Of a stretch of 64,000 nucleotides of DNA, positions 8,504 to 56,950 are shown piece after piece. The stretch is from the NCBI GenBank assembly GCA_034231615.1, contig CM067310.1, forward strand, positions 79,501 to 143,500. Direction: 5' to 3'. Source of the DNA: Meghimatium bilineatum. Its lineage: Eukaryota > Mollusca > Gastropoda > Stylommatophora > Philomycidae. Position 1 is the first letter of the stretch; each line of letters starts with the position of its first letter. The notes under the pieces were generated by a model. It worked only from the letters and a program-made list of their open reading frames with translations, made no database searches and was not told where the DNA came from. The translations under genes were made by a program, and so were the position numbers.

Positions 8504-8843
8504 GTTGGTTCTGTCCAGTTCGAGACCACTGTCCAGTAATTGCCGTAGTCATCACCAATGATTTTGACTTTATGGAAAATGCTTCAGTTGACTATGAGAT
8601 TGTGAGCAGTCCAAGCACAAATTCTCACAGTCCAACTACAAACTTCTTCAACATTGACCCAGAGGGCAGGATTTTCTCCCAGGTGGATCAACAGTATCTT
8701 GATCGAGAGACAAGACCGAAATTGGAGGTAGTGATTCGGGCTAAAGACCGCGGACCGAAGCCTCTGTCATCTACAGCAACTGTCACAATTATAATCAAAG
8801 ATATCAATGATAATGCTCCTGTTTTTACCCAAAAAGTTTACAA
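8504..8843 (+). CDS. CadN: DN-cadherin exon 3 (one EC repeat; start ambiguous)
   Basis: The exon encodes NDFDFMENASVDYEI (DxDxxxNA), FNIDPEGRIFSQVDQQYLDR, a LDRE-type motif, AKDRGPKP and KDINDNAPVF. It ends in phase 2 at the donor gtaagt (8844). Three AGs could be the acceptor: starts at 8504, 8519 or 8537 all complete the phase-1 codon left by exon 2. The 8504 start keeps the conserved glycine of EHSPPG and has the best CAG|G context, but adds an unusual WFCPVRDHCP stretch. The 8537 start gives a more compact loop. Confidence 0.88.
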
Positions 8844-8869: not shown

Positions 8870-9058
8870 ATTTCATGTCCTTCTAATTGTTCATCCATAG
8901 AGCTCTTTATATTGTGATCTTTATGTCATATATATTTCTTGTCCTTCTGATTGTTCCTCTGTTCACCCTTAGAGCTTTATATTGTGATCTTTGTCTTTCT
9001 ATTTTTTTCCTTGTGATTGTTCATCTGTTCACCCAGAGAGTTTCATACTCTGATCTTG
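8870..9058. repeat. Tandem repeat, about 64-bp unit x 3
   Basis: Three degenerate units share CTTGTCCTTCTRATTGTTC, an AGAGCTTTATATTGTGATC-like block and a T-rich segment. The array directly follows exon 3 and ends at the family E repeat. Confidence 0.7.
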
Positions 9059-15044: not shown

Positions 15045-16258
15045 AAGCGTGTATAAGCTCAATTGTATCAGTCAGTTGTTGGTTGTGTATAAATTCAATT
15101 GTATCAGTCAGTTGTTGGTTGTGTATAAATTCAATTGTATCAGTCAGTTGTTGGTTGTGTATAAATTCAATTGTATCAGTCAGTTGTTGGTTGTGTATAA
15201 ATTCAATTGTATCAGTCAGTTGTTGGTTGTGTATAAATTCAATTGTATCAGTCAGTTGTTGGTTGTGTATAAATTCAATTGTATCAGTCAGTTGTTGGTT
15301 GTGTATAAATTCAATTGTATCAGTCAGTTGTTGGTTGTGTATAAATTCAATTGTATCAGTCAGTTGTTGGTTGTGTATAAATTCAATTGTATCAGTCAGT
15401 TGTTGGTTGTGTATAAATTCAATTGTATCAGTCAGTTGTTGGTTGTGTATAAATTCAATTGTATCAGTCAGTTGTTGGTTGTGTATAAATTCAATTGTAT
15501 CAGTCAGTTGTTGGTTGTGTATAAATTCAATTGTATCAGTCAGTTGTTGGTTGTGTGTAAGCTCAAGTGTATCAATTAGTTGGTGGTTGTGTATAAGCTC
15601 AAGTGTATCAGTTAGTTGGTGGTTGTGTATAAGCTCAAGTGTATCAGTCAGTTGGTGGTTGTGTATAAGCTCAAGTGTATCAGTTAGTTGGTGGCTGTGT
15701 ATAAGCTCAAGTGTATCAGTCAGTTGGTGGTTGTGTATAAGCTCAAGTGTACCAGTCAGTTGTTGGTTGTGTATAAGCTCAAGTGTACTAGTTAGTTGGT
15801 GGTTGTATATAAGCTCAAGTGTATCAGTTGGTGGTTGTGTATAAGCTCAAGTGTACCAATTAGTTGGTGGTTGTGTATAAGCTCAAGTGTATCAGTTAGT
15901 TGGTGGTTGTGTATAAGCTCAAGTGTATCAATTAGTTGGTGGTTGTGTATAAGCTCAAGTGTATCAGTTAGTTGGTGGTTGTATATACGCTCAAGTGTAT
16001 CAGTCAGTTGTTGGTTGTGTATAAGCTCAAGTGTATCAGTTAGTTGGTGGTTATGTATAAGCTCAAGTATATCAATCAGTTGTTGGTTGTGTATAAGTTC
16101 ATATGTATCAGTCAGTTATGTATAAGCTCAAGTGTATCAGTTAGTTGGTGGTTATGTATAAGTTTATGTGTATCAGTTAGTTGTTGGTTGTGTACAAGCT
16201 CAAGTGTACCAGTCAGTGAATGTGGGTGTATAAGTTCAAGTGTATCAATCAGTTGTTG
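15045..16258. repeat. 36-bp minisatellite, about 33 units
   Basis: The left two-fifths (15063-15545) are nearly identical units of CAGTCAGTTGTTGGTTGTGT plus ATAAATTCAATTGTAT. The right part uses variants with AAGCTCAAGTGTAT and GTTGGTGG. Homogeneous units on one side suggest recent local expansion. Because 36 is a multiple of 3, it gives long meaningless open frames. Confidence 0.95.
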
Positions 16259-16614
16259 GATGTGCATTCTTTGGATTTTTCCAGAAACTTTCTTACTCTT
16301 GTTTGGTCACTCCAATATTTATCATTCTGTCAACTTGCACATTACTTTCTTGTAGCCTTTACTTCGTTACTTTAAAGGGCATCCATAACTGCCCTCATTG
16401 ACTCAGCACTGTCTTTTCTTATAACTAATTCATACAATATAGAATTCAACAATGCTTTCAACTGCATTGGCTCTATCATTGCCTGTGATTCATGCATGAA
16501 ATGGGCAGTAGATTCATGTTATAATTTAAATGTTGCCCAATTCTGGCAAGAGATTCTATGCCAAGATTGGAGTTCTTTGTCATCTCCACACACAACAGAG
16601 AGGTGCATCAACAC

Positions 16615-16775: not shown

Positions 16776-16955
16776 TGTCTTACCTTATCCAGACATGAGA
16801 ACATTGCTCTGTATCATCCTATGAGTATTATGTTATCATCCTATGAGTATTATGTTATCAATTCTAATAATTGTGTTGTGTATAAGTTCAAGTGTATCAG
16901 TCATTGACTGACTGTTCCATTGACTGAACACATTTTTGTTATGTTCATATTTTAG

Positions 16956-17042
16956 GACAGTAGAAGAAAACAAAGAACCTGGAGAGTTGCTGACAATATT
17001 TCATGCTGAGGACATTGATTCAGGGATCAATGCTGAGTTCAG
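16956..17042 (+). CDS. CadN: DN-cadherin exon 6 (87 nt, start of an EC repeat)
   Basis: The acceptor is tattttag at 16955. One base completes the valine codon from exon 5. The exon then reads TVEENKEPGELLTIFHAEDI and DSGINAEF, the first strands of an EC repeat with the E, DxD and NAxF positions expected for calcium binding. It ends in phase 2 (ag|gtgagg). Confidence 0.93.
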
Positions 17043-17570: not shown

Positions 17571-17734
17571 TATCTTTAGCTATATCTTTCAGCTCTTTCT
17601 ATATCATATCTAGTCTGCATCACATTCTTTCCTGCAGGTGTTTCTTGTAGTAGTGTTAAGGTTGAGTTTTTGGCGTAGTACTTAATAGAATTTATCTTTT
17701 TTCTTTTCTTTAGAGTTACTTGATAGATAAGGAG

Positions 17735-17960
17735 TGAGGTAGCCTAGTTGATAGTGAGCTTGCTTGCTATCATTGGGGTACAGCGTGCTAGAATTGAAAC
17801 CACGCCCAGACCCAAAAAATCCAGGTTGAGATTTCTTGCCTGATACCTCCACTCCTCTAGTCGATTCAGCTGTTAATGAGAACCTGATGCATGAGTTTGG
17901 GGAAGTAAAGACAGCAAGGAAGGAAACTGGCCACTCCACCTAACAGTTGCTGCGGTTTAG
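17735..17960 (+). mobile_element. tRNA-derived SINE
   Basis: The element begins GGTAGCCTAGTTGATAGTGAG, a good RNA polymerase III A box, and continues to AGAATTGAAACCACGCCC, a B-box-like block about 45 bases later. A 150-bp unrelated body follows. It sits inside the acceptor-like array. Target duplications were not identified. Confidence 0.65.
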
Positions 17961-18028
17961 TATATGAAGATTTATCTTATCCTGAGCAGCAGGTTTCTGC
18001 CTTGTTTTTCTTTGCAGCTACTAGATAT

Positions 18029-18670
18029 GGTTGGTTGGTTGGTTACTGATCCAGCGGTCTATGGGCTCATGCCCTTTGACCCAATGCCATTAAAATGGCA
18101 TTATATTGCTGGGAAGTCTGTGGATTTTTGGCTCACCCCGGGACAGAGCCAGAGAATAACTATCACACCTCCAGGAAGGTAGGTTTCAACCTATGCAATG
18201 CTCCCAGCCACTGTAGCCAAGATAGGGTTCACCATGCTCATTCCCCGCCACCAATTGACTACTGGTTATGCCGAACTTCTCTATTGCTCCAGGTATGTAA
18301 CCAAATATTCAAGTCAAAAGGATTGTCACATCCTGAGTCACTGTGCCCCTATGATGGGTCTCGGCCATAGGAAAAAACAGTGCTGTCAGTTTCCTCCTCC
18401 CCAGTGCCAGAGAATAACTATCACACCTATGCTGCACAGTACATCTCTGGCTCCCTCCCAACCACAGAGGGTGCATACATATATATTCAAGTAAACATGA
18501 AACACATTTCAACAACAAAATAAAAACATAATTGTATAGATGACGTGCCATGACGTTTCTATAAAAAGATAACCTCAATATAACGGCATGTCATCCACTA
18601 AGGTTTTCTGTTGCATGGGTGGTTTGTCTAGTGGGCCATTGGTGAGACCCACAGATGCAACCACATGCGT
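18029..18670 (+). mobile_element. 642-bp interspersed element with 13-bp TSD
   Basis: AGCTACTAGATAT occurs at 18016-18028 and 18671-18683, exactly bracketing the element. It begins with GGTTGGTTGGTTACTGATCC and contains CCAGAGAATAACTATCACAC twice (about 18149 and 18407). The first 200 bases match 30383-30525 in intron 10. No long coding frame and no poly-A tail are seen; its class is unknown. It is inserted in the acceptor-like array. Confidence 0.8.
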
Positions 18671-19786
18671 AGCTACTAGATATAAGTAATCTTGTTTTTC
18701 TTTGCAGTTACTTGATATAAGTGATCTTGTTTTTCTTTGCAATTACTTGATATAAGTGATCTTGTTTTTCTTGCAATTACTTGATATAAGTGATTTTGTT
18801 TTTCTTGCAATTTACTTGATATAAGTGATCTTGTTTTTCTTGCAGTTACTTGATATATGTGTTCTTGTTGTTTTTTTGCATTTACTCAATATGGTTGTTA
18901 TTGTTTTTCTTTGCAGTTACTTGACATAAGTGATATTGTTTTTCTTTGCAGTTACTCAATATAATTTATATTGTTTTTATTTATAGTTACTTGATATAAT
19001 TGATCATATTTTTCTGTGCAATCATTTGATGGAATTGATTTAGTTCTTCTTAAGGTTAACTGATAGATAGTTGCATACATCTCAAAAAGGTAACTCACTT
19101 GAATATGCTTGAGATTTTAAAGCCGACCTGCCCACATTGTTATCGGCAATACAATTGGATGTATTTGTGTGAATCTAAAACTTGAAAAATAATTGATTTG
19201 AAATGTCTTATACAGGATATGATTCAATTCATAGAAAGAATTGATCCTCTATTTTCTTACATTGTCCTAATGAATAAAATTAATTCTTCTTTCATACAGT
19301 TATCCGACAGATGAAAGTGATCTTGTTTTATTTTTCATACAGTTGTTTAATAGATATAAATCAATCTTGTTTTTGTTAGATATAATTTATTTTTGTTAGT
19401 TACCTTACAGACAGAATTTATCTTTATTTTGTTTACAGTTGTTTGACAGATAGAATTTATCTTTATTTTGCTTACAGTTGTTTGACAGATAGAATTTATC
19501 TTTATTTTGCTTACAGTTGTTTAACAGATAGAATTTATCTTTCTTTTTGTTAGTTACCTGATAGACAGAATTTATCTTTATTTTGTTTGCAGTTGTTTGA
19601 CAGATATAATTTATCTTTATTTTGCTTACAGTTGTTTAACAGATAGAATTTATCTTGATTTTGCTTACAGTTGTTTGACAGACAGAATTTATATTTATTT
19701 TGCTTACAGTTGTTTGACAGATAGAATTTATCTTTATTTTGCTTACAGTTGTTTGACAGATAGAATTTATCTTGTTCTACTTACAG

Positions 19787-19923
19787 TTATCTGATAGATA
19801 GAGAATCAGATCCTCGACATGAGTTTGTCATTGATCCTGACAGTGGACAAGTAAGAACTCGGAAGAAGCTGGATCGTGAAGTTGAATCTAAGTTGAACAT
19901 TAGAATCAAAGCTGTGGATAAAG
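19787..19923 (+). CDS. CadN: DN-cadherin exon 7 (middle of EC repeat)
   Basis: The first base completes a serine codon from exon 6. It then reads YLIDRESDPRHEFVIDPDSG, QVRTRKKLDREVESKLNIRI and KAVDK, with the classic LDRE and A-x-D strand motifs. It leaves in phase 1 at g|gtatta. The start at 19787 is fixed by phase and homology; the upstream AGs of the array would shift the frame and meet a stop at 19792-19794. Confidence 0.95.
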
Positions 19924-25903: not shown

Positions 25904-27487
25904 ATCATCATCATCATCAGGTGCCATGCCGGGTGGCGTAGGCGGTCATGGTTCTCCACAGCTCTCTGTCCACAGTATTATGTATCAAAGTCGTTGTTGT
26001 TTCTTTGCCGTGCCAGGTTGTCAAACTGTCTAATATTTTCTCACGTTGTCGCCCTCTGTCTCTGGTGCCTTCAATCTTGCCTGTTGTGATTATGTTCTCT
26101 AAACCTGCCTGTCTCATGAAGTGGCCAAAAAAAGAAGATTGCCTTTTTCTTATATTGTTGATTAAGGTCCTTTTCGCATTTAACTCTTTTAACACCTCTA
26201 CATTAGTTTTTCTGGCAGTCCATGGTATTCTCAGCATTCTTCTGTAGAACCACATCTCCGTTGCCTCCAATCTCCCACTTTCCAGTTTGTTTATTGTCCA
26301 AGACTCGCACCCATATGTTAGTATAGGGGTTATATAGCACTGCAGAACTCTCTTTCTCACCTCTAATGACAAGGTCATATTACACAGTATATTTTTCATT
26401 TTTCTGAATGTTGTTTTTGCCTGTCCTATTCTGCATCTTATTTCTGTTGAACTTCTTCCATCTGCTGTTATAATTGTACCTAGATATTTGAATTGGTGGA
26501 CCTGTTTTAATACTATATCATTCACTATGATCTTGCAAGGTGTGTTATTTTCTTTCTTTGAAATAACCATTACTTCTGTTTTCTTGATATTTAGGAAGAG
26601 GCCTTTCTCTTTGCTTTCTGTGACTACTACTTTAATTAATTTTTGAAGGTCTTCCTCACTTTTTGCAATCAGAACAGTGTCATCCGCATATCTCAAATTA
26701 TTTATGTTATGTCCTCCCACTGATATTCCTGGGATATCTACTATTGCACGCATTATGTTTTCACTGTATAGAGAGAACAGGTCTGGTGAAAGCACGCATC
26801 CCTGTCTGACTCCTTGTTTTATTTGTTGAAAAGGGCCAAATTGCTTTCCTACTCTTATTGCTGCTGTTTGTTGCCAGTACATGTTCTTGATTATTCTTAA
26901 ATCCTTGCTGTCAATGTTCAGATTCTCTAGCATGTGTATAATTTCGCTATGTTTAACTTTGTCAAAAGCTTTAGTGTAGTCTATAAAACAGAGGTACAGA
27001 TATGTTTTTACCTCTATAGACCTCTCTATTAGTGTTCTCAATATATAAATCGCAGTGTTGGTGCCTTTGCCTTCTACAAATCCACATTGTTCTGGACTTA
27101 TTTCTGGTTTTATTTTGTTTCTCACTCTCTTCATGATGATTCTGAGCAGTATTTTGGTTATTTGGCTCATGAGGCTGATTGTACGGTGTTCTTCACATTC
27201 GGTGGTCCCTGGTTTCTTAGGTAATGCTATGAATATGGATCTCATTAAGTCATCGGGTATGTTTCCGCTGTTATATATGTCATTCAGCAATTTTGTGATT
27301 ATTTCAACTCCAAAGTTATCTAAAGCTGCTAATTCTTCTAATGTGATATTGTTGGACCTGGGGCTTTGCCATATTTCATGTGTCTTAGTGCCTCCCTTAC
27401 TTCTGCTGTGAGTATTGATGGACCCTCGCCGTTATCTTGTATGTTTATTTCTGGTCTATTGTCCTCATAAAGTTCTTTGATATATTC
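25904..27487 (-). mobile_element. RTE/BovB-like LINE (family B), long open RT, inside the 27-bp array
   Basis: The minus strand has an uninterrupted 457-codon frame (27290-25917): ALPKKPGTT, FVEGKGTNTAIYILRTLIER, FIDYTKAFDKV, GVRQGCVLSPDLF, LRYADDTVLIAK (catalytic YADD at residues 201-204) and the C-terminal MWFYRRMLRIPWTARKTN. Upstream to 27478 lies further RT-linker coding sequence out of frame. The 3' end is a (TGA)n tail (25904-25919). The endonuclease is missing, so this is a 5'-truncated but young copy. Minisatellite units flank both ends. Confidence 0.92.
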
Positions 27488-38521: not shown

Positions 38522-39421
38522 CTATATCTGCAGTGTTGTTTCTTGTATAAATTGAACAGTGTTTTCCATTTCTTGTTTTGTACCATAAAGTTTAACATTC
38601 ATTGGTGTATCAGAAGGCCAGTATGTGCATCTTAATGTGTCATAGTTTGCACATTCTTGAAGGATATGTTCTGAAGTCTGGTTGACTTGTCCACAATTAC
38701 ACTTTGCTGTTGTGCCAATTTTAAATTTTGTATACATATGGCTGTTTAGTCTATTGTGTCCAGTTCTCAGTCGAAATATGATGACCTGTTCTTGTCTGTT
38801 AAGTAGGTGGTAGTCATCCCGTGGAGGTAAGTTAGGCTTTCGTTGTGCCTTTATCATGGATTTCTTTTGGTGATAGCTGATTGGTATATCCGGTTGCTGC
38901 ATGTTAGCACCTTCCTTGGCGAGTTGATCAGCTCTCTCATTTCCTGCTATTCCACAGTGTGATGGAATCCATTGCAGTATAACTCTACACCTATTTTGTA
39001 CTATGGACAATACCTCTTTTAACTCTGGAAGTTTATTGGATTGTAATGCCTCTAGTACTGACCTTGCATCTGTAAGTATTACAATAGGGTGTGAGGTCCT
39101 GTCCAATGTTAACAGTTTCTCTGCAGCTGTATAAATAGCTTTGACTTCAGAGTCATAGTTGTTGCAGTAATTCCCTGTTGGTATACAAGTGGTATCAGTG
39201 GTGCCATCTGGGTATTCTACATATACACCACTTCCTCCATTTTTTACTGCATTCTGTGCTGATCCATCTGTATATACTCTGGTCCATAGATCACTTGGGT
39301 AAACATCATCAAGGAAACTTAGAGCTGCTACTCTTTTCTGCAGATTATTCTGATGTTCATCCCATGCACACCTGCTACTGTTGTTTGGATGGTCACTGGT
39401 AGGCATGTCCGTTTTTCCCAT
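38522..39421 (-). CDS. LINE RNase H domain and cysteine-rich tail
   Basis: The 299-residue frame carries VYTDGSAQNA (D52), YDSEVKAIYTAAEKLL (E92), VILTDARSVLEALQ (D118) and WIPSHCGIAGNERADQLAKE (H155, D165), the four acidic/histidine landmarks of type I RNase H, then CNCGQVNQTSEHILQECANY. It overlaps the RT frame by 94 bases in another phase. One frame change is the only visible defect of the whole element. It could be a mutation, a sequencing error or translational recoding. Confidence 0.88.
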   Translation of the reverse strand: MGKTDMPTSDHPNNSSRCAWDEHQNNLQKRVAALSFLDDVYPSDLWTRVYTDGSAQNAVKNGGSGVYVEYPDGTTDTTCIPTGNYCNNYDSEVKAIYTAAEKLLTLDRTSHPIVILTDARSVLEALQSNKLPELKEVLSIVQNRCRVILQWIPSHCGIAGNERADQLAKEGANMQQPDIPISYHQKKSMIKAQRKPNLPPRDDYHLLNRQEQVIIFRLRTGHNRLNSHMYTKFKIGTTAKCNCGQVNQTSEHILQECANYDTLRCTYWPSDTPMNVKLYGTKQEMENTVQFIQETTLQI

Positions 39422-42387
39422 GGGGTGTGTTCTGGTTGAGATGTCAGTGGTATTGTTACCTCTGGTAGATCCGATACCTGTCTACGTAGACGCTTGGCCT
39501 GGTGTATGAAGCTGCTTCTTTTAAGCCGTCCTTGTGATAGATTCTGGAATCTTTCCTTCATTGGGTGACTATGGTGGGAAAGAAACTTTTCTCCATGAAT
39601 TATAATTTTAGTATCTCTACGCTCTTTCAATGACTGCATCCCTTCGATATTCTGCATTTCTATGATTGGTGTGGATCTCATTGCGCCTGTAATGATTCTA
39701 AGTGCTTGGTTCTGTACTCTATCTAGGTTTTGTAGTGTAGTGTTTGATGATGAACTCCATGCTGTAGAACCATATTCCAAGTGTGGTCGAATGGCTTGTT
39801 GGTATACATTTTTTAGAATTCTTTCATTAGCTCCCCAAGTTGTCCCACTCAGTTTTCTTAGTATAGCTATCTTCCTTCTAGCCTTTGTTTCTGCTTTGCT
39901 GATATGATGTTTCCATGTCATTTTGGCATCAAATGTTACACCAAGATATGTGGGTTGGTCATCTAGCTTTAAGATAGTTTTATTTACATAGATGTTTCCT
40001 GCTCTTTGTTTTGGTGAAAGTGTAAAAAGGGTTGTTGCTGACTTCTCTATATTGATACTTACACACCATTTGTCAGCCCAATTAGTCAAAATGTCCATGG
40101 CTCTCTGAAGCATTTTTGTGGTAACCATGGCGCTCTCATGTGTGCACCAGAGAACCAAGTCATCTGCATATAGTGCTGCCTTAGTTCCACAGGGTATTTC
40201 TTCAATTAGATCATTGATAAATATGAGAAAAAGAGTGGGTGATAGAACTCCTCCCTGAGGCACTCCATGGCGTAGTAATACTTTCCTACTTTTTTTGCCA
40301 TTTACTTGTACTCTGGCTCTTCTATTGTGAAGAAAGGCTTTCGTCCATCTATACATATTTCCACATATCTTGTAGTTTCTCATTTTTTGAAGCAATCCTT
40401 CTTTCCATACTTTATCAAAGGCCTTCTGTAAATCAATCCATGCCACTAAAACTGATTTTTTGTCTTGGAAAGCATCCTCAATTTCCTGTGAGAGGTATGT
40501 GGTTTGATCCTCTGTGGAGTAGCATTGCCTGAAACCTGCCTGCTGTGGTGCAAGGAATTTTCTACTTTCCAGGTGAAATTTTAGTCTTAGGTTTATGATG
40601 CGCTCCATTGTTTTGCACAGGCAACTTGTAAGACTAATTGGTCTGTAGCTAGTTGGTGTTGTTCCGTCTTTTCCAGGTTTAAGCAGAGGGACCATAATTG
40701 ATTCTCTCCAGATTTGTGGTATTTTCCCAGTAGACCAGCTAATATTTAGGATGTCCAATAGTTTCCTTCTGGCTGTTGTTCCTAGATTCTTTATCATTTC
40801 ATTTGATATTTCATCAATTCCTGGAGACTTATTTAGCTTTAGTTTAGAGACTGCTAATTCCAATTCACTATATGTGAACAATGTATCCATAATTTCATCT
40901 GCACTGTTTTCATCACTGATTCTAGTCTGAGCATGTTCCAATTTACTTTTTTGGTCGCTCCGCACTGTATGCTGTTTCTCTGGACTAATTTCAATATTGC
41001 AGTCTTGAGCAAATATCCTAGCGAAATTATCTACTGCTTGCTTTCCTGTAATCATTTTGCCATTCTGTACGAGTGTTATGTTTGTGCTTCTTCCTGTTCC
41101 CTCATCATTTAGTTGTTTGACCAGTTTCCACAGTTTTCTTCCATCCTTTTCAAAATTTAAGGATTCTGTTTTCTCTTTCCAGCTCTTTCTTCTAGCTTCT
41201 AGTTTGGCTCTTTGGAATTTAGCTTTTGCGTGTTGATGTTTGTTGTGATGTTCCTGGCTTGGGTTATTTTCCACTTCCGTCCGTGCTTTTTCTAATTCCT
41301 CTTGCAGCAGTTCTAGTTGTTCACTCCAGTATGGCTTGTATTGTTTGCGTGCTCCTCTTGGTATTGCTTCCTTAGCAGCTTGATGAATACATTTATTGAA
41401 CTCTTTGACTATGGCGTTTATGTCTTTTCCTTCCATGTCTATTTGTCCAGCTAAAACACTACTGCGGTGTTTAAATAGTCCCCAATTTGCTTTTTTATAA
41501 TTCCATCTTGGAAGGCTAGATGCATTTCCTGTGAGTTCATTTTTAATACTAAGGAGGACTGGTCGATGGTCGCTACCTCCAAGTTGCTTCCCCACTGTTC
41601 TATTGATTTCCCAGTTTAGGTCTGCTGAGTACAATGCCAAGTCTGGCGTGGAAGTGGTTTGCCATGCTCTTGAGTAGTATGTTGGAGGATCTTTTGGCTT
41701 ATTAAGCAATAGAAGACATTTATCGTCTTGCCAGCTTTCAAGTTCTTCTCCTCTTTTATCCATGTGGTCATAACCCCAGCTTTGTGAGTGACTATTAAAA
41801 TCTCCACATACTATCAGTCTTCCTCTGTACGGTATTGTGTCCAGGGAAAGGGACTGGTCATTTGGACAATAATAATTTAATAGGTTGAAGTCTGTGTTCT
41901 TGGTCTTTAGTTGAAGGACCTGATATTCTGCTCCTTCCATGTATAGCTCAGTTTGATGTGCGCTGATATTATTTTTGACTAGAGTTAGTATACCTCCTTT
42001 TCTTCTGTCTACTCGATCAGCTCTAAAGCACTGATAACCTGCAATTTTAAAGGCTACATCTTTGCTGAGGTGTGTCTCTTGTATGCAACAAATGCTGACC
42101 TGTTCCTTGTGAAGGGTGTTTTCTAATTCTAATTTCTTGCTAAAGCCATCTTTTTTGCTATTTACACCCTCAGCATTCCAGTGCATTATTGTAAGTGATG
42201 TCTCATTGGTTGGTAATATTTGTTGGTCAGTGATATTACTCTTGTGCCTCCTGGCTCCACAAGGCAATCGAAGAGGACCTCCAGTCGTATGGGGTGGGCC
42301 CTTTCGAGGTATAGGGCCCGGTGCTACTCCTGCCTGGTGAGTCGTCACAGGGTTAGCACCATAACGGGGTAATGCAGATATAGACAT
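39328..42387 (-). CDS. LINE endonuclease-reverse transcriptase polyprotein
   Basis: This 1019-residue frame nicks target DNA and copies the element RNA at the nick, as in other endonuclease-bearing LINEs. Catalytic residues of both domains are present: N71, E105, D196 and N198, D273 and H274 in the endonuclease; D652, D741 and D742 in the RT. A basic linker (residues 365-410) separates them. The frame ends in a short out-of-frame tail after EHTPWEK, and the next domain continues in the frame starting at 39421. It is a transposon gene, not a host gene. Confidence 0.9.
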   Translation of the reverse strand: MSISALPRYGANPVTTHQAGVAPGPIPRKGPPHTTGGPLRLPCGARRHKSNITDQQILPTNETSLTIMHWNAEGVNSKKDGFSKKLELENTLHKEQVSICCIQETHLSKDVAFKIAGYQCFRADRVDRRKGGILTLVKNNISAHQTELYMEGAEYQVLQLKTKNTDFNLLNYYCPNDQSLSLDTIPYRGRLIVCGDFNSHSQSWGYDHMDKRGEELESWQDDKCLLLLNKPKDPPTYYSRAWQTTSTPDLALYSADLNWEINRTVGKQLGGSDHRPVLLSIKNELTGNASSLPRWNYKKANWGLFKHRSSVLAGQIDMEGKDINAIVKEFNKCIHQAAKEAIPRGARKQYKPYWSEQLELLQEELEKARTEVENNPSQEHHNKHQHAKAKFQRAKLEARRKSWKEKTESLNFEKDGRKLWKLVKQLNDEGTGRSTNITLVQNGKMITGKQAVDNFARIFAQDCNIEISPEKQHTVRSDQKSKLEHAQTRISDENSADEIMDTLFTYSELELAVSKLKLNKSPGIDEISNEMIKNLGTTARRKLLDILNISWSTGKIPQIWRESIMVPLLKPGKDGTTPTSYRPISLTSCLCKTMERIINLRLKFHLESRKFLAPQQAGFRQCYSTEDQTTYLSQEIEDAFQDKKSVLVAWIDLQKAFDKVWKEGLLQKMRNYKICGNMYRWTKAFLHNRRARVQVNGKKSRKVLLRHGVPQGGVLSPTLFLIFINDLIEEIPCGTKAALYADDLVLWCTHESAMVTTKMLQRAMDILTNWADKWCVSINIEKSATTLFTLSPKQRAGNIYVNKTILKLDDQPTYLGVTFDAKMTWKHHISKAETKARRKIAILRKLSGTTWGANERILKNVYQQAIRPHLEYGSTAWSSSSNTTLQNLDRVQNQALRIITGAMRSTPIIEMQNIEGMQSLKERRDTKIIIHGEKFLSHHSHPMKERFQNLSQGRLKRSSFIHQAKRLRRQVSDLPEVTIPLTSQPEHTPWEKRTCLPVTIQTTVAGVHGMNIRIICRKE

Positions 42388-56519: not shown

Positions 56520-56950
56520 GCGATATGATTTCTTAAGAGTTTACGGTATGATTTCTTGTAACATGTTTACCTTTTGATTTCTTGTAAGAGTTTACAGTAT
56601 TTCTTGTAAGAGTTTACAGTATGATTTCCTGTAAGAGTTTACAGTATGATTTTTGTAAGATTTTACAGTATGTATTCTTGTAAGAGTTTATCGTATTATT
56701 TCTTATCCGCATGAGTTAGGTCTGGAGGTCTCACTGTTTCCTTATGAAATTGACCATTATGCAAAAGTCAACTCTCAGTAGACTTTTCAGTAAACTCACA
56801 TGCCAATATATTGAAATTTTTCTCTTGTAGAAGGTCTGAAAATCTCACTATTTCCCCTCAGTTGATGACATGCCAATATATTGAAATTTTTCTCTTGTAG
56901 AAGGTCTGAAAATCTCACTATTGACCTACAATCATGTAAAAGTAAACTCT
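56520..56950. repeat. 25-bp tandem repeat and a 70-bp duplication
   Basis: TTCTTGTAAGAGTTTACAGTATGATTT-type units (about seven, degenerate) run to 56705. A block with TGACATGCCAATATATTGAA, TTTTTCTCTTGTAGAAGG and TCTGAAAATCTCACTAT is then present twice (56797 and 56867). Confidence 0.85.

Follow-up and report, generated by a model that had tools for sequence, protein, structure and literature searches.

A tandem array carrying copies of the exon 7 acceptor precedes a cadherin exon and resembles the lancelet mirages

Minisatellite-like arrays whose units contain an intron-exon boundary have been described in lancelets as "mirages", in the genes for Adh3, the globins BflGb6 and BflGb9, troponin C and PGBD5 (PMC3087553, PMC3902484). 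According to these accounts, AG or GT is kept in many units, and splicing is regular, as judged by RT-PCR for the globins and by the data for Adh3, and as suggested for PGBD5; in the globins and PGBD5, the array varies from one assembly to another. In intron 18 of human ABCA7, a VNTR of about 12–427 copies consists of tandem units that each repeat the adjacent exon's splice signal, and retention of one unit causes a frame shift and a premature stop. Such retention is reported at about 2%, independent of VNTR length, while longer VNTRs are associated with more exon 19 skipping and lower expression, decoy use being unaffected (PMC5954066). Internal repeats at human exon-intron boundaries have also been described (PMC2812944). 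The array analyzed here shares the boundary-containing unit and the widely kept AG with the lancelet mirages, the repeated splice signal and the predicted outcome of decoy use with ABCA7, and the close spacing of its acceptors with NAGNAG tandem acceptors as these are described.

The window, the whole stretch of 64,000 nucleotides that was analyzed, corresponds to C13:79501-143500 in a genome of 1.61 Gb and 32 contigs; as contig C13 measures 27.9 Mb, the window lies close to one contig end. Its plus-strand exons, whose limits we set from reading frame and splice motifs, code for a cadherin, presumably of the invertebrate classical cadherin family. Exons 6–8 make up one Pfam Cadherin domain (E = 6.6e-19). 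The DE-cadherin Ig-like domain is matched by a later exon (E = 1.4e-7), and laminin G by another. Intron 6 is flanked by the following exons:

16956..17042, plus strand: exon 6 (cadherin repeat), with the donor GTGAGG after 17042; its frame joins exons 7 and 8 in the Pfam Cadherin domain.
19787..19923, plus strand: exon 7, 137 nt, donor GTATTA; placed by frame continuity and by SYLIDR, invariant in three relatives.

Exon 7 opens with a split S codon followed by YLIDR. On the minus strand, the window also carries two long non-LTR retrotransposon frames, one with endonuclease and reverse transcriptase (39328-42387) and one with reverse transcriptase alone (25917-27431). Contigs C15, C20 and C22 of genome G000 yielded many cadherin-repeat matches in long open frames, among 150 scored candidates; several of these frames span 900–1847 residues, like an expanded protocadherin family.

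The acceptor of exon 7 stands at the end of a repeat series:

19400..19786, plus strand: young array of ten units, the last being the true acceptor, supported by Tandem Repeats Finder (TRF) and unit comparison.

Each unit combines a polypyrimidine tract and an AG with a copy of the bases that open exon 7, and all ten units end in AG when the true acceptor is counted. The TRF array (19407-19802, 39 bp × 10.2, score 603) reaches 16 bp into exon 7, which places the authentic acceptor within the unit series. The initial annotation had described acceptor-like units at 39-bp steps that lead to the real acceptor by a last step of 38 bp. Site 19786 is indeed one of the series, every AG that it listed lies in its place, and the last step is 38 bp; the 39-bp spacing holds for most units, except that the step from 19516 to 19553 is 37 bp, the unit there ending in TTAG instead of CAG. 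One additional young unit, beyond those listed earlier, starts after the AG at 19399, and the unit lengths in order are 39, 39, 39, 37, 39, 39, 39, 39, 39 and 38 bp. A 154-bp period of four units, also called by TRF, suggests growth by duplication of a four-unit block. Three inner units are identical and the terminal unit is 4–11 edits from the others, so that homogenized inner units stand beside a distinct edge unit.

Joining exon 6 to a decoy would interrupt translation. Intron 6 has 106 YAG sites, counting the true one; in a frame test confined to YAG, exon 7 stays open from 19786 alone. The earlier prediction that decoy use shifts the frame into a TGA just inside exon 7 held for six sites:

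19792..19794, plus strand: TGA reached by the exon 6 frame from each of the six decoys 19553-19748.

From the four decoys 19399-19516, the exon 6 frame meets TAG at 19551-19553, and all stops of the decoys 19399-19748, at 19551 or 19792, lie well ahead of the exon 7 donor. Nonsense-mediated decay is expected for a stop at such a distance before a donor; as the stop at 19792 precedes the exon 7 donor by 129 nt, decay of these transcripts would be expected. Use of the nine decoys 19438-19748 would lengthen exon 7 from 137 nt to 175–485 nt, a size compatible with exon definition.

Acceptor strength was scored with a simple, generic weight table for 18 decoys, 19786 and nine other acceptors of the gene, two uncertain acceptors being left out. 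On this scale the true acceptor scores 5.7, eight of the nine other acceptors (range −2.7 to 7.4) fall below it, and 11 of the 18 decoys reach at least 5.6. The nine decoys 19438-19748 score 3.9–6.1, with 19670 and 19709 below 5; the weakest decoys are 19399 (−1.2) and 18986 (2.0). With so many strong decoys, measurable use is possible, which counts against the predominantly correct splicing that we favor below.

A YTRAY motif lies 29–31 nt before nine of the ten AGs at 19438-19786 (sole miss, 19438), compared with 178 of 2040 YAGs window-wide that have one at 25–33 nt. Since the units are copies of each other, this spacing amounts to one coincidence and not nine. The motif originates from copied exon bases, CTGAT in the exon and TTGAC in most units, and one copy precedes the true acceptor:

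19753..19757, plus strand: TTGAC, which by motif only is a candidate branch site for the true acceptor.

Its A at 19756 lies 30 nt before the AG end, within the exon-derived copy of the last unit. The true acceptor's branch candidates inside the array are this TTGAC at −30 and TTTAT at −17, and any branch site further upstream would have decoy AGs between itself and the true acceptor. With an intronic part of only about 25 bases per unit, the true acceptor now probably relies on a branch site within the array; if this is the exon-derived TTGAC, as it may be, former coding bases would have turned into a branch site. Recursive splice sites have the form AG/GT; in the units, TT and not GT comes after the AG, and recursive splicing was rejected on this ground.

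The initial annotation had allowed, as a fallback, that the decoys have no branch points and are inert. At the level of motifs this finds no support, given YTRAY upstream of nine of the ten young-array AGs, although such a motif need not be a used branch site. A wider version, with decoys never used owing to poor branch sites, bound repressors or a lack of exon enhancers, would agree with the undisturbed splicing reported in lancelet mirages (PMC3087553, PMC3902484), but sits poorly with a tract and a branch-like motif at nearly every young unit, and we regard it as unlikely.

Further copies lie to the left of the young array:

17691..17733, plus strand: furthest recognized copy, a T-rich tract, an AG (as GAG) ending at 17715, then TTACTTGATAGATA.
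18018..18707, plus strand: old 35-bp unit split by a 655-bp insertion (18029-18683).
18673..19021, plus strand: older array of ten acceptor-like units of 34–36 bp, with AG lost in five.
19275..19342, plus strand: two intermediate units, with AG ends at 19299 and 19342.

Older units had been noted here as 36-bp repeats; they are present, with lengths of 34–36 bp and a TRF period of 35 (18674-19020, 35 bp × 9.9, score 438) in place of a uniform 36. The layers differ in divergence, the older units having diverged further than the young ones. AG is kept in five of the ten older units, and the G of AG is their most diverged column (changed in 5/10). Loss of this G could reflect selection against usable decoys; as three of the five G-loss units are neighbours, perhaps through one event, the pattern proves nothing, and preferential AG loss in old units was rejected, since the top column represents few independent events. 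Copies of a 13-bp direct repeat, AGCTACTAGATAT, flank the insertion (18016-18028 and 18671-18683) as a target duplication, and the unit that the insertion splits is the first of the ten older ones; the old array layer therefore predates the insertion. At 17715, the furthest copy agrees with the exon 7 start at 12 of 14 bases. Directly after it, 17734-17990 holds what we take to be a tRNA-derived SINE-like sequence.

The layering also bears on the suspicion that the unit number was invented or collapsed during assembly. Tandem arrays are prone to such errors, and the lancelet globin and PGBD5 arrays are reported to vary between assemblies. Here, however, the units carry distinguishing differences, divergence changes from layer to layer, and an insertion with its target duplication interrupts the old layer. 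An artefact is thus highly improbable, and the exact copy number alone is doubtful.

SYLIDR at the exon start is kept exactly in all three relatives compared (P0121-P0123; 56, 110 and 74 residues), which makes exon 7 the likely source of the unit. In P0122, an upstream stretch of 55 residues, about 165 nt read in a single frame, holds no in-frame unit copy; in the two other frames the unit contains a stop in 9/10 and 6/10 cases. The upstream stretch read in P0123 is only about 66 nt, and P0121 is too short. P0122 probably, though not surely, has no array, and this comparison points weakly to an origin of the array after the P0122 lineage had diverged. The array-encoded peptide had no match at E <= 1 among 756 candidates from 5.8 billion proteins, and an exact unit fragment had none among viral contigs, a collection that may omit records close to the genome of the window.

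Across the 1.61-Gb genome, the 35-nt unit pattern (at most 3 mismatches) has eight matches, all in this array, with none on the other strand and none for a reversed control. Minisatellites are common: arrays of period >=9 occupy 14.6% of bases in the window and 43.7, 3.2, 10.2 and 3.6% in four other 10-kb stretches. A copy across the boundary was found within 1 kb at 1 of 22 exon boundaries, as against 498 of 3000 random positions; the 22 exclude four uncertain ones (acceptors E11 and E15, donors E10 and E11). The 26-boundary set, in which several positions are a few bases off, gave one clear and one weak match (donor of exon 3), compared with 1500 random places, of which 246 reached >= 40 bits. 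A gathering of arrays at exon boundaries was accordingly rejected; a deficit there is expected, because the exon halves of boundaries are under constraint. Among 30 fn3 loci, mostly from one region of contig C9 and with exon ends not set per locus, two have an array no further than 150 bp from the domain, and none has an array overlapping the matched domain.

Other arrays were seen near exons. At L043, one of the fn3 loci elsewhere in the genome, seven 33-bp repeats whose consensus lacks AG lie just before the inferred acceptor of an fn3 exon (1250-1492), and a 43-bp array follows the inferred donor. A 25-bp array at 56524-56704 begins 44 bp downstream of a laminin G exon donor (56480); on visual inspection, five of its seven units contain GTAAGA and four TTTACAG, which could offer decoy donors and acceptors. 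The 66-bp array at 8888-9057 begins some 45 bp downstream of the donor whose exon ends at 8843 and does not span the junction. Intron 5 holds 34 copies of a 36-bp unit, open in several frames (15049-16264), and an apparent stray unit of this array lies at about 16878-16905, some 50 bp before the exon 6 acceptor.

One use of such an array would be as a copy-number rheostat, whose decoys compete for the exon 6 donor in unproductive joins, array length setting the amount of functional cadherin. Most decoys look motif-complete, all YAG joins save the true one close the frame, and the donor-side ABCA7 VNTR is reported to correlate with exon skipping and lower expression (PMC5954066). In the same report, however, frameshifting retention stays near 2% whatever the length; lancelet arrays are described or suggested as harmless (PMC3087553, PMC3902484), P0122 seems to have no array, and arrays are not enriched at exon boundaries. 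We therefore consider a rheostat quite unlikely.

The reading that we prefer, with a probability of roughly 75%, is a mirage-type minisatellite that expanded locally and near-neutrally; splicing would go mostly to 19786, and some would leak into unproductive joins. Tandem duplication in the intron would have copied the exon 7 3' splice site with at least the first 14 or so exon bases; the units would have drifted, been struck by the insertion and recently re-expanded as units and a four-unit block were duplicated. The copies should confuse splicing, yet probably do so only a little. Most transcripts would join 19786, since no other copy is continuous with the complete exon and the enhancers of that exon (exon definition), and a minority would join decoys and be removed by nonsense-mediated decay, leaving the array near-neutral. 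The same anatomy in lancelet mirages, together with ABCA7, which bears on both sides, favors a near-neutral array with leakage.

A bolder version, which we hold to be very doubtful, is that a self-renewing series of at least ten complete 3' splice sites with exon-derived branch sites diverts exon 6 joining into decay in proportion to copy number; if true, a hypervariable minisatellite would act as dosage control of a cell-adhesion gene. The locus is also a natural test of acceptor choice, with near-identical branch-tract-AG modules in series and the last alone joined to a full exon, where junction counts per unit would gauge exon definition against order along the transcript.

This array adds a further case to the lancelet and human ones found in print. 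As described, lancelet units measure 150–160 bp in the globins, 60 and 108 bp in PGBD5 and 10–72 bp in Adh3; here, units of 34–39 bp form divergence layers over 2 kb of a cadherin gene, with an insertion inside. The ABCA7 VNTR has a 25-bp unit and lies on the donor side, whereas the cadherin array lies on the acceptor side (PMC5954066). NAGNAG acceptors, as described, are spaced 3 nt apart, compared with 37–39 nt here, where nearly each acceptor has its own branch-like motif. The cadherin array is not a new kind of device: its anatomy is that of a lancelet mirage, with ABCA7 as the donor-side counterpart.
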